Shown: positions 4,301 to 20,800 of the stretch, in pieces
How positions within the stretch are numbered: position 1 is the first letter of the stretch
Layout: every line of letters begins with the position of its first letter
Source of the DNA: a bacterium
GTDB taxonomy: Bacteria > SZUA-79 > Acidulodesulfobacterales > Acidulodesulfobacteraceae
Assembly: GCA_021798875.1 (NCBI GenBank)
Contig: JAJZBN010000017.1
Coordinates: 1 to 38,392 of the forward strand
DNA: 38,392 bases
Reading direction: 5' to 3'
Notes under the pieces: model-generated
Databases searched by the model: none
Seen by the model: only the letters and a program-made list of their open reading frames with translations
Told to the model about the DNA's origin: nothing
Made by a program: the position numbers and the translations under genes

Positions 4301-4383
4301 AATTTGACTTTTTGATTTATTGTGTTATTATAAATATAACTAAGTTAATTTGACTTTTTTATTTATTGTGTTAATATTTAATA
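4301..4383 (+). promoter_or_regulatory. Tandem duplicated promoter of the sHdr operon
   Basis: A stretch of roughly 35 bp is repeated with a 46-bp period: copy one from 4301, copy two from 4347. Each begins AATTTGACTTTTT and contains ATTTATTGTGTTA. Each copy holds a promoter: TTGACT 4304-4309 with TATTAT 4326-4331, and TTGACT 4350-4355 with TAATAT 4372-4377, both with 16-nt spacers. The second would start near 4384, about 70 nt before hdrC1. No other promoter is as clear before the operon. Confidence 0.55.
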
Positions 4384-4456: not shown

Positions 4457-5134
4457 ATGGAATATGATGAAAATGGAGTAAGTATAGTTCCCGCCGAATT
4501 AAAAAAAGAGATTTTCGAAGAAGCAAGAAAAGATTTCCGGTATGAAGAATATGTCAGAGGATGTTTAAACTGCGGCGTCTGCACCGGCGGATGTCCGCCC
4601 CACAGATTTTTCGATTTTTCTCCGCGTATAGTACTTCAAAAAATGAAATCAAAAGACCCCGAACTTATCTGGACTATGATGGACGAATATGTATGGGCTT
4701 GCTTCCAGTGCTTTACCTGCGCAATGATTTGTCCATTTTTAAACAGCCCCGGAGGCGTTATAGCTATATTAAGGGAAATTGCGGTTAGAAGAGGATTCGA
4801 ATCGGCAAAAAAAGTTTTAAAACCTTATTCCAGGGTGCTTTTAAAACTTACCGCATACGGCAACCAGCTTTCTCCGGACATGATACAGCCGGATTTTTTT
4901 CCGGACTGGGGTCCTCATATAGGATATGCCTCGACGGATCTTGCAGTAAAAAGAAAGGCTATTCCTATGCCGACTCTTCAGGTTACCAATTTGGCATGGG
5001 ACGTCGCTCCGGAAACTATGAAAGAGTTATACGACATATTCGACGAAGCAGGAGTTTTTAAAATAATAGAATCCGTCGACCCTTCGCTTTACGAAATAAT
5101 TCAGGATATTGTGGACGACGTCAGGAGTTCTTAA
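4457..5134 (+). CDS. hdrC1: sHdrC1: HdrC-like [4Fe-4S] electron-transfer subunit
   Basis: A 225-residue iron-sulfur protein of the sulfur-oxidising heterodisulfide-reductase-like complex. Two complete 4Fe-4S ligand sets are visible: C36-x2-C39-x2-C42-x3-C46 followed by P, and C82-x2-C85-x2-C88-x3-C92 followed by P. This is the standard HdrC layout that passes electrons between the flavin subunit HdrA and the catalytic-type HdrB. An AGGAG site 6 nt before the ATG supports the start. It is the first gene of a six-gene unit whose order, C1-B1-A-hyp-C2-B2, is that of sHdr clusters in Hyphomicrobium, Acidithiobacillus and Aquificales. There are no membrane segments, so it is cytoplasmic. The 221-bp gap to hdrB1 carries hairpin repeats. 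Confidence 0.9.
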   Translation: MEYDENGVSIVPAELKKEIFEEARKDFRYEEYVRGCLNCGVCTGGCPPHRFFDFSPRIVLQKMKSKDPELIWTMMDEYVWACFQCFTCAMICPFLNSPGGVIAILREIAVRRGFESAKKVLKPYSRVLLKLTAYGNQLSPDMIQPDFFPDWGPHIGYASTDLAVKRKAIPMPTLQVTNLAWDVAPETMKELYDIFDEAGVFKIIESVDPSLYEIIQDIVDDVRSS

Positions 5135-16311: not shown

Positions 16312-17217
16312 ATGTTGACGGACGTTCAAAATTCAAAAGACGGAAGAGGCATAGCCATAGATAAAGTCGGGATAAAAAACCTTCATTATCCTATATCGGT
16401 TCTCGATAAAGCAAAATCATTCCAGCATACCGTGGCAGACATAAATATGTACGTTGACCTTCCGCATTATTTCAAAGGCACGCATATGAGCCGCTTCTTA
16501 GAGGTTTTAAACCAATACAGGGGCGAAATAAGCATAGTTAATTTTCCCGATATTTTAAGAAAAATAAAGAAAGTTTTAAACGCAGGTTCCGCATCCGTCG
16601 AAATTGAATTCCCGTATTTTATAGAAAAAACCGCTCCCGTCAGCGGAAAGAAAAGCCTTATGGAGTATATCTGCTATTATAACGGAACTATAAAAGACGG
16701 AAAAGCTGCTGCTTCTAAACAGGAAAAAACAGAAATAAATGAAATAAAGAGATCGATAGCGATAAAGGGGTCAGAATTGAATTCTGACCCCTTTATCGCC
16801 GATAAGAAAGAGTCCGCCTGCGCTATCCGCTCCGACGACGAAAGCGTTATAATAATCGGCGTCAAGGTGCCAATAAACACTCTTTGTCCGTGTTCAAAAG
16901 AAATATCGAAATATGGGGCGCACAACCAGAGGGGCATAGTTTCGGTTTCGATAGAGTTCGATAAACTGATATGGTTTGAAGATATTATAGCCGATGTTGA
17001 ATCGTGTGCCAGTTCCCCAATTTATTCGCTGTTAAAGAGGGAAGACGAAAGATTTTTGACGGAGCATGCTTACGAAAATCCTATGTTTGTAGAAGACGTC
17101 GCAAGATGCGTAGCCGGAATACTCAAAAAGAATAAAAATATTAAGCGTTTCAAGGTAGAGGCGGAAAACTTTGAAAGCATTCATAACCATAACGCCTATG
17201 CTATGATAGAGGGATAA
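16312..17217 (+). CDS. folE2: GTP cyclohydrolase FolE2 with an in-frame palindrome-encoded insert
   Basis: A 301-residue type IB GTP cyclohydrolase, which converts GTP to dihydroneopterin triphosphate, the first step of folate synthesis. Family marks are FPYFIEKTAPVSGKKSLMEY, the metal-ligand and substrate segment INTLCPCSKEISKYGAHNQR, and a C-terminal RFKVEAENFESIHNHNAYA. The usual length is about 260 residues. The extra residues lie around 140-172, in a loop between the strand ending YNGTIKDGK and the strand SVIIIGVKVP. Residues 150-163 are encoded entirely by a 41-bp perfect palindrome, with peptide core KGSELNSDPF. All recognisable catalytic segments lie outside the insert, so the enzyme is probably active. 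There is no ribosome site; see the leaderless promoter upstream. Confidence 0.93.
   Translation: MLTDVQNSKDGRGIAIDKVGIKNLHYPISVLDKAKSFQHTVADINMYVDLPHYFKGTHMSRFLEVLNQYRGEISIVNFPDILRKIKKVLNAGSASVEIEFPYFIEKTAPVSGKKSLMEYICYYNGTIKDGKAAASKQEKTEINEIKRSIAIKGSELNSDPFIADKKESACAIRSDDESVIIIGVKVPINTLCPCSKEISKYGAHNQRGIVSVSIEFDKLIWFEDIIADVESCASSPIYSLLKREDERFLTEHAYENPMFVEDVARCVAGILKKNKNIKRFKVEAENFESIHNHNAYAMIEG
16759..16799. repeat. Coding palindromic element, copy 1 (inside folE2)
   Basis: Perfect 20-bp arms (16759-16778 and 16780-16799) around a single central G. The core is GGGGTCAGAATT-G-AATTCTGACCCC with outer arms GCGATAAA/TTTATCGC. It is read in frame as A-I-K-G-S-E-L-N-S-D-P-F-I-A, with no stop codon. 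The same core and reading frame recur in aroC. Confidence 0.93.
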
Positions 17218-17233
17218 AGAAAAATATATTAAG

Positions 17234-17274
17234 GAAATAAAGGTGTCAGAATTCAATTCTGACACCTTTATTTC
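17234..17274. repeat. Palindromic element, copy 2 (folE2-aroC intergenic)
   Basis: Perfect 20-bp arms (17234-17253 and 17255-17274) around a central C. The core is GGTGTCAGAATT-C-AATTCTGACACC: the G-to-T change in the left arm is matched by C-to-A in the right arm. The outer arms are GAAATAAA/TTTATTTC. It lies 17 bp after the folE2 stop and 52 bp before the aroC start, outside any gene. Confidence 0.93.
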
Positions 17275-17325
17275 TGACTTTATTCAAATTGCTAAGTTAT
17301 TAATGTTATCGGGAGGTAAGTAAAA

Positions 17326-18609
17326 ATGCTCAGATTTTTGACGGCTGGGGAGTCGCACGGCAAGGGACTTATTACAATAATAGACAATTTTCCTGCGGGC
17401 GTTAAAATAGACGAAGAGTTTATAAACGAAAAATTGAGGCTTAGGCAGTCGGGCTACGGCAGGGGCGCAAGGCAGAAAATAGAAACCGATAAAATAGAAT
17501 TTTTATCCGGAGTCAGGGGCGGTTTAACTACCGGTTCTCCGATATCGTTCTTTATAAAAAATAAGGATTACGAAAACTGGCGCGATAGGATGGACGTATA
17601 TAAACCAGTTCCGGAAGAAAGTAAAATTCATACGCCGAGACCTGGTCACGCCGATTTTGCCGGTTCGATAAAATTTGGGTTAGACGATATTAGAAATGTT
17701 TTGGAACGTTCCAGCGCAAGGGAAACTGCGTCGAGGGTTGCGGTCGGAGCGATTTGCCAGATATTTTTGAAAAATTTCGGCATCGAGTTTGCTTCTGCCG
17801 TGCTGAACATCGGCGGAATCGGAATTGAGACGGCTGAAATTTTGCCTGACACACATGCGGCTAAGAAAAAGGGGTCAGAATTGAATTCTGACCCCTTTTT
17901 CTCCGAAACAGCCGAAACAGACCGCTTTTCTATAGATATTTTCGACCCTGCTATTCGTCAAAATATCGAAAACTCCGAGCTCCGCATGCCGCATCCGGAA
18001 CTTGAAGAAAAAACTAAGGATTATATCGACAAAATGAAAGCAGAAGGCGATACCGTCGGCGGACTGATTACGGCTCAGGTAAAGGGCGTACCGGTGGGTC
18101 TTGGCAGTTTTACACAGTGGGACGAGAAATTGGATGCCCATATATCGATGTCCGTAATGAGCATTCAGGCAATTAAGAGCGTAGAAATCGGCGCCGGCGT
18201 AAAATCTGCTTATCTGAAAGGTTCGGAATGCCACGATTCGATATACAGTCAAAGCAGCGATAAAGAGAAAAGGAGGGATTCTGCCGTGTGCGGTTTTTAC
18301 AGAAAAACCGACAATGCCGGCGGCATAGAAGGCGGAATGTCTAACGGGGAAATAATAAGCGTAATCTGCGCAATGAAACCGATACCCACTTTAATGAAAC
18401 CCTATCTTGACACCGTTGACTTAAACACCTGCGAAGCAAAAAAAGCCTTTCTCGAAAGGTCAGACGTATGCGCCGTTCCGGCGGCGTCAATCGTCGTCGA
18501 ATCCGCCATCGCTTTTTCTATATGCTATTTTTTCCTCAAAAAATTCGGCGGCGATAGTTTTGCCGAAATTAAAAGAAATTACGACGGATATATAAAAAAT
18601 GAGCAGTAA
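17326..18609 (+). CDS. aroC: Chorismate synthase with an in-frame palindrome-encoded insert
   Basis: A 427-residue chorismate synthase, the last step of the shikimate pathway (EPSP to chorismate, needing reduced FMN). Diagnostic segments are TAGESHGKGL (6-15), RLRQSGYGRGARQKIETD, HTPRPGHADFAGSIKFG, RSSARETASRVAVGA, EGDTVGG and NAGGIEGGMSNGE. Family members are often 350-400 residues; the excess includes residues 180-193, encoded by a palindromic repeat with core KGSELNSDPF, and flanking low-conservation residues (about 170-205). A second variable stretch, SQSSDKEKRRD, lies near 305-318. Catalytic segments are intact, so function is likely kept. GGGAGG 11-16 nt before the ATG is the ribosome site. 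Confidence 0.95.
   Translation: MLRFLTAGESHGKGLITIIDNFPAGVKIDEEFINEKLRLRQSGYGRGARQKIETDKIEFLSGVRGGLTTGSPISFFIKNKDYENWRDRMDVYKPVPEESKIHTPRPGHADFAGSIKFGLDDIRNVLERSSARETASRVAVGAICQIFLKNFGIEFASAVLNIGGIGIETAEILPDTHAAKKKGSELNSDPFFSETAETDRFSIDIFDPAIRQNIENSELRMPHPELEEKTKDYIDKMKAEGDTVGGLITAQVKGVPVGLGSFTQWDEKLDAHISMSVMSIQAIKSVEIGAGVKSAYLKGSECHDSIYSQSSDKEKRRDSAVCGFYRKTDNAGGIEGGMSNGEIISVICAMKPIPTLMKPYLDTVDLNTCEAKKAFLERSDVCAVPAASIVVESAIAFSICYFFLKKFGGDSFAEIKRNYDGYIKNEQ
17864..17902. repeat. Coding palindromic element, copy 3 (inside aroC)
   Basis: Perfect 19-bp arms (17864-17882 and 17884-17902) around a central G. The core is identical to the folE2 copy: GGGGTCAGAATT-G-AATTCTGACCCC. The outer arms differ: AGAAAAA/TTTTTCT. 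It is read as K-K-K-G-S-E-L-N-S-D-P-F-F-S, the same frame as in folE2. Confidence 0.93.
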
Positions 18610-20763: not shown

Positions 20764-20800
20764 AATATTGGGGACAGATTTCAAATCTGTCCCCAATATT
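20764..20800. repeat. Variant palindromic element between flagellin and flaG
   Basis: Perfect 18-bp arms (20764-20781 and 20783-20800) around a central C. The core is GGGGACAGATTT-C-AAATCTGTCCCC, related to but distinct from GGGGTCAGAATT of the folE2/aroC copies. Outer arms are AATATT. It lies 30 bp after the flagellin stop, with T-rich sequence only further on, and could separate high flagellin mRNA from flaG as a stability hairpin or terminator. Confidence 0.9.

Follow-up and report, generated by a model that had tools for sequence, protein, structure and literature searches.

Palindromes in and around folE2 and aroC

The DNA analysed here, called the window, is contig JAJZBN010000017.1 of GenBank assembly GCA_021798875.1 at its full length of 38,392 bp (contig C105 of a 2.5-Mb bin of 126 contigs), from a bacterium of the Acidulodesulfobacteraceae. 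It contains several copies of a short palindromic element, two of which lie inside the coding sequences of folE2 and aroC, genes whose identities were supported by NCBIfam scores above cut-off (Table 1). As the initial annotation of this DNA had described, both in-gene copies were perfect palindromes around one centre base each and were read in the same frame, which yields the shared peptide KGSELNSDPF. In each of the two, the centre base was found to occupy codon position 3. The third copy announced for the region between the two genes was also located, and the three copies lie inside 1.15 kb. All three window matches to the core GTCAGAATTNAATTCTGAC were exact, compared to 0.01 matches expected from shuffling. 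A fourth palindrome, with a GGGGACAGATTT core, had been absent from the earlier list. An assembly artefact is an unlikely source of these palindromes, since several other genome bins were shown to have palindromes at the same sites.

Table 1. Genes and palindromes of the window (ORF, open reading frame; hairpin energies and z-scores are predictions for RNA).
Feature	Position	Strand	Support
folE2 (GTP cyclohydrolase FolE2) with in-frame insert	16312..17217	+	ORF; NCBIfam NF010200, 272.2 bits
folE2 palindrome, 20-bp arms, centre 16779 (G), read as AIKGSELNSDPFIA	16759..16799	.	RNA hairpin -35 kcal/mol, z -9.74
folE2-aroC intergenic palindrome, 20-bp arms, centre 17254 (C), GGTGTC variant	17234..17274	.	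RNA hairpin -28 kcal/mol, z -8.37
aroC (chorismate synthase) with in-frame insert	17326..18609	+	ORF; NCBIfam NF003793, 388.4 bits
aroC palindrome, 19-bp arms, centre 17883 (G), read as KKKGSELNSDPFFS	17864..17902	.	RNA hairpin -33.2 kcal/mol, z -7.29
Related intergenic palindrome, GGGGACAGATTTCAAATCTGTCCCC core, 18-bp arms, centre 20782	20764..20800	.	

A Dispersed Family of Palindromes

A search for the core in the source genome and its relatives, bacteria of acid mine drainage, showed a dispersed family that is not confined to folE2 and aroC. In the source genome, 47 places matched GTCAGAATTNAATTCTGAC with at most two mismatches, and the reversed pattern used as a control matched none. Within the genus, CAGANTTNAANTCTG was present in 15 of 16 genomes at 0 to 53 copies each (reversed control, 0 to 4). 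Among the 52 of 53 source-genome copies that were examined, five were found in predicted genes, one of them at a doubtful N-terminus. The copies fell into two classes, one intergenic (such as GACGGGGACAGAATT) and often arranged in tandem, the other with AAAGG/CCTTT outer arms and including all four reliable in-gene copies of the source genome. The AAAGG class was detected in 20 of the 30 genomes of the family, and the control was 0 in all 30. At least 102 family palindromes were assigned, of which the AAAGG class contributed 37 in predicted genes and 38 intergenic ones, and the other class 2 and 25, respectively. This census covers the stretches around the copies among the matches listed, with one locus each for genomes G002, G012, G009, G015, G007, G018 and G020 and 12 of the 16 copies of G008, and its gene assignments are our own ORF calls made from codon usage.

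Most palindromes were about 31–50 bp long. They consist of two halves, with the consensus AAAGGNG[T/A]CNGA[A/T]TT, placed head to head with a one-base spacer; inverted pairs of halves resembling repetitive extragenic palindromes (REPs), some with a spacer, and singlets were found as well. Copies were seen to cluster, with five palindromes in 7.35 kb of locus L145. The same core was present at nine loci of other bacteria, which by record label are bins of Gammaproteobacteria, Pseudomonadales, Desulfuromonadales and Desulfobacteraceae. A phage vector for the element was considered and set aside, as a search of viral_contigs for GGGGTCAGANTTNAANTCTGACCCC gave 0 exact matches.

Some copies showed particular arrangements. 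Tandem intergenic runs of the GACGGGGACAGAATT/GGTGCCAGAATT class with a spacing of 37–41 bp occur in the source genome at C79:77952-78081, C121:83474-83715 and C110:78824-78924. In a Gammaproteobacteria bin (L063, near 1469), the core lies within a nested palindrome with 29-bp arms that is overlapped by an open frame of 304 codons. At L105:1436, L101:3856 and L199:815, half-elements GGTGTCAGATTTATTT precede a terminator-like hairpin, ACTCCCGACTGCG...GTCGGGAGTTTTTTT.

A Candidate Transposase

The initial annotation had suggested that a Y1 transposase be looked for beyond the window, and the source genome was found to contain one Y1_Tnp match (L005), a Y1/REP-type gene. Genes of the REP-associated tyrosine transposase (RAYT) type and of similar score and length were present in G014, G003, G004, G008 and G002, and G005 contained one with a stop codon; NCBIfam was run for the L005 gene alone, the other genes being judged from Y1 score and length. 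Half-elements GGNGWCAGATTTATTT were present at five of seven RAYT-type loci, with 14 in about 21 kb around the seven, compared to 17 in 487 kb of sequence from elsewhere in the source genome and 6 in 226 kb of sequence from related genomes. Mobilisation of the element by a RAYT is plausible. A separate palindrome, TCCAACATATCTTGCAAGATATGTTGGA, was observed near 988 of L005, upstream of the RAYT gene.

No RAYT of this type was detected beside the distant copies in the DNA stretches examined, in that a phmmer search with the L005 protein against the ORFs of the nine distant loci gave no match at E 1e-3, and a repeat of the search on these loci with two positive controls recovered the controls alone. 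A link between RAYT presence and the number of AAAGG copies was also considered and was dropped as not significant.

Host Genes, Insertion Sites and Empty Sites

By Pfam, the host genes encode FolE2, AroC, shikimate kinase, a PMT_2 glycosyltransferase, an AAA_33 kinase, a sigma-54 response regulator and ribonucleotide reductase; an eighth host (L130) had no Pfam match. Two insertion sites each were found in AroC and in the PMT_2 glycosyltransferase, and aroC, aroK and folE2 carry copies in several lineages. The inserts of FolE2 and AroC were both shown to fall between segments that could be aligned with a solved homologue, at residues 141–148 and 176–195 of the respective homologues, which indicates loops of variable length and agrees with the location first proposed for them.

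Alignment with orthologs revealed empty sites in both enzymes. An identifiable palindrome centre, with 11 to 15 of 15 pairs, was present in 13 of 16 FolE2 orthologs, including the imperfect copies of G019 (14/15 pairs) and G010b (13/15). The three others were G011, which was empty, G006, which had a short remnant, and G007, which had an inverted version with a spacer. Empty FolE2 sites were found in L053 and three outgroups. For AroC (15 orthologs), the palindromes of G000, G013, G002, G010 and G008 were perfect over 15 pairs and those of G015 and G011 showed 13/15, and the remaining eight orthologs were decayed, empty or different. Empty AroC sites were found in L021, L022, L024–L026 and L027–L035. 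For the sigma-54 regulator, 4 of 11 orthologs contained the insert and six did not (empty in L234, L237, L238 and L240–L242), and L239 contained an unrelated loop. Of 14 ribonucleotide reductase orthologs, one was perfect and two were decayed. Encoding of the same residues without a palindrome, which the initial annotation had named as grounds to refute its reading, was seen in part, as aroC of G015 encodes similar residues, KKKATELNSDAFF, on a decayed palindrome (13/15 pairs).

In G007 (L014 and L045), these loops of aroC and folE2 contain in-frame inverted versions with a spacer, GGGGACAGATTTATTTT...AAAAAGAT. In the G010 bin, two versions each of folE2 and aroC were found (L122/L164, contigs C13 and C75), and this bin therefore probably mixes strains.

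Joint Change of the Two Arms

Pairing between the arms was compared in six orthologous sets with that obtained when right arms were permuted among orthologs (20,000 rounds), a shuffle that ignores relatedness. In the core, 480 of 510 cells were paired (shuffled mean 449.3; 0/20,000 rounds), and in the outer arms, 16–20 bases from the centre, 129 of 170 (mean 100.2; 0/20,000). The flanks at 21–24 bases showed no clear excess in the six sets (40 of 136 paired, mean 33.8; 1877/20,000). Relatedness was taken into account with FastTree trees made for each gene with the insert removed, on which the number of steps common to both arms was compared to that for permuted partners (5000 permutations). 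On the FolE2 tree (13 of the 16 orthologs), 18 steps were common to both arms compared to a permuted mean of 6.57 and a maximum of 14 (0/5000), and on the AroC tree (7 of the 15 orthologs) 9 compared to a mean of 3.01 and a maximum of 8 (0/5000). The limit for inclusion was stricter for AroC, where G019 (11/15 pairs) was excluded, than for FolE2, where G005 (11/15) was included; under other limits, with 8 and 10 taxa for AroC and 10 for FolE2, the whole-arm test gave 2, 0, and 0 of 5000, respectively.

In the sigma-54 regulator of four species, the left outer arm reads GAAAA, GATAA, GAAAC or GAAAT, and the right arm is the exact complement in every case (20/20 cells). In FolE2, the residues change along with the arms (IKGS..DPFIA, IKVS..DTFIS, EKAS..DAFSA). 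The outer arms showed no family consensus, and the centre base varied freely. Long arms were seen in aroC of G008, with 24/24 pairs. In AroC of G010, the left flank GGCAAAGG complements the right flank CCTTTGCC of the same copy. The left flank is AAAAAGG in G002, which has the same right flank as G010 and is 92.2% identical to it outside the insert, and also in G000 and G015. In this one polarised case, the left arm of G010 was therefore probably rewritten from its right arm.

The reading that we prefer, with a probability of about 52%, is that of a compact REP/REPIN-like mobile element that is kept palindromic in place by template switching from arm to arm. Two half-elements would be fused head to head around one base and would be mobilised by an enzyme, probably a Y1 transposase of the RAYT type, that acts on half-elements. 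Copies would land between genes and in enzyme loops that tolerate them, and within genes the survivors would be in-frame insertions free of stop codons. Template switching during replication would then maintain and sometimes lengthen the palindrome, a change in one arm being copied to the other so that codons on either side of the centre would change jointly, and uncorrected copies would decay to ordinary loop sequence. Such switching would account for the matched changes, the long arms and the variable centre base together, and it appears to be the likeliest cause of the joint change. Two earlier reports describe this process: template switching at inverted repeats homogenises arms and inverts spacers and was inferred in yeast coding genes (PMC8604942), and it was also inferred in RNA stems (PMC8794818). 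The wider proposal, that a selfish palindrome repairs and extends itself in essential genes, forces coupled amino-acid changes throughout the family and so drives part of loop evolution, is held more tentatively, at somewhat short of even odds.

Several results weigh against the mobile element maintained by template switching. Core variants were identical in genic and intergenic copies, and replacement of whole elements could therefore mimic covariation of the core. When the outer arms alone were tested on the trees, FolE2 showed 8 shared steps compared to 4.17 permuted (231/5000) and AroC 5 compared to 4.80 (3981/5000), and in two of the six sets (ribonucleotide reductase and intergenic) own arms showed no clear excess over swapped ones (0.73/0.73 and 0.75/0.72). 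Matched changes outside the conserved element are what best distinguishes editing in place from re-insertion, and this evidence is good in the shuffle that ignores relatedness and weak on the trees. The outer-arm results on the trees lower the odds of editing in place and raise those of re-insertion. As to the transposase, the L005 protein scored 71.9 bits with the REP-associated tyrosine transposase model NF047646, under the NCBIfam cut-off of 80 bits. The AAAGG copy number did not differ significantly with RAYT presence (p = 0.36; p = 0.13 for intact genes only) in a comparison that counted as lacking a RAYT G001 and G015, whose Y1 genes were judged to be of plain IS200 type by score and length, and several incomplete bins. 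Furthermore, seven genomes of genus g2 had no AAAGG copy though six of them matched Y1_Tnp.

Re-insertion would mean that certain loops are hot spots where copies of different subfamilies land on, or overwrite, one site across species. Besides the shared core variants and the outer-arm trees, the clustering of copies and the repeated use of aroC, aroK and folE2 in several lineages fit this explanation, as does the FolE2 insert of G004, which resembles that of G019 from a different genus, as recombination would produce. We consider re-insertion rather unlikely, since pairing reaches 16–20 bases from the centre, beyond the element consensus, and imperfect intermediates exist in FolE2 (G019 and G010b). 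Moreover, three close relatives (94–97% identical outside the insert) share a constant right flank TAAT and have three different matched outer arms.

Paired arm changes and RNA hairpins of high predicted stability (-28 to -35 kcal/mol) would also be expected if the stem worked in mRNA or DNA, through attenuation, mRNA stability or protein binding, and compensatory substitutions were selected. Such selection would have to act in unrelated host genes, and the palindrome has been lost or has decayed in orthologs; in addition, outer-arm pairing was similar in genic and intergenic copies and some arms were as long as 24 pairs, which together make selection for a hairpin improbable.

Reading Frame

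In-gene copies among the matches listed were in phase 2 in 36 of 39 cases and in phase 1 in three, and none was in phase 0. Intergenic copies read in both orientations were free of stop codons in 68 of 68 cases in phase 2, 34 of 68 in phase 1 and 6 of 68 in phase 0, and avoidance of stop codons alone predicts 63% phase 2. Counted by hand as distinct sites, 10 of 12 were in phase 2 (P = 0.12 compared to stop-codon avoidance). Excluded from these 12 were sites possibly located before the true start (L122 residue 3, L125 residue 20, L095 residue 7 and L135 residue 7, the last in triosephosphate isomerase and in phase 1) and L082 (PanC, C-terminal tail); the AAA_33 site, at residues 16 and 41, was retained and could be open to the same doubt about the start.

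The initial annotation had read the palindromes as a mobile element whose sequence is selected to be readable as a harmless peptide. A dispersed, probably mobile element in a non-rickettsial genome, inserted in frame in variable loops, was indeed found. Selection for the coding frame finds its support in the excess of phase 2 among in-gene copies; these copies are not independent, stop codons account for most of the bias when it is counted by site, and intergenic copies vary at the same positions. Selection for readability is thus unneeded, and we regard it as very improbable. Effects of third codon positions were likewise rejected, as pairs 3, 6 and 9 (also 8 and 10) from the centre vary in genes and do so in intergenic copies too. 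The idea that the phase favours evolvability was dropped, as PMC6649704 describes the phase that pairs third codon positions with each other as the strictest.

Comparison With Known Palindromic Elements

Rickettsia palindromic elements (RPEs) are described as in-frame palindromes in unrelated genes and solvent-exposed areas, with inserts at the same locus in orthologs (PMC3767692), and the elements studied here share with them the in-frame palindromic insert and the orthologs with empty sites. Compared by description and not by sequence, RPEs differ in being 100–150 bp long (PMC3767692), whereas here the arms pair no better than background past about 20 bases from the centre, and in reportedly losing repeat identity over time (PMC6649704), whereas here the arms change together. 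REPs in genes outside Rickettsia have already been published (PMC3733652). Those of the GTAG/CGTC type lie inside genes of several non-rickettsial species, in one instance at roughly the same position in orthologs (PMC3733652). In contrast, no conserved GTAG or CGTC tag was found in 68 copies of the present element (base counts 10–40 bases from the centre), and the portion of PMC3733652 used here describes no arm covariation at orthologous sites for GTAG/CGTC REPs. The many dispersed short palindromes, the singlets and inverted pairs of halves, and a RAYT-type gene in the genome recall REPIN/RAYT systems, from which the present element differs in that its halves are fused with a one-base spacer and that its copy number shows no significant link to RAYT presence.

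Perfect inverted repeats in coding sequence that were inferred to be actively maintained, with template switching as a suggested process, are known from mitochondria of Nematomorpha (PMC6649704). These occur within conserved parts of the host genes, can be as long as 284 bp and show a deficit of phase 3 pairing (PMC6649704), whereas the present element is dispersed and shows phase 3 pairing, that is, codon position 3 with position 3. The palindromic amphipathic repeat coding sequence of Mollicutes and others is also read as protein (PMC2996958) but is described as intragenic tandem repeats (PMC2996958). As in palindromes corrected by template switching, the arms changed jointly at orthologous sites, here over the whole arm.

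The best-ranked matches of a literature search included no dispersed REP-like bacterial coding element with co-changing arms at orthologous protein sites, and this joint evolution of the arms is the unusual part of the present element. For three Rickettsia families, the choice between a hot spot and one diverged insertion was left open (PMC3767692); the orthologous site sets assembled here, with their many states, make that question testable. If template switching is the cause, these palindromes would provide a natural record of this mutation process in bacteria and an example of non-adaptive coupled amino-acid substitution. They also connect coding palindromes with a plausible transposase.

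Elsewhere in the window, at 4301–4377, two near-identical direct repeats of 31 bp, 46 bp apart, were observed ahead of an ORF at 4457.

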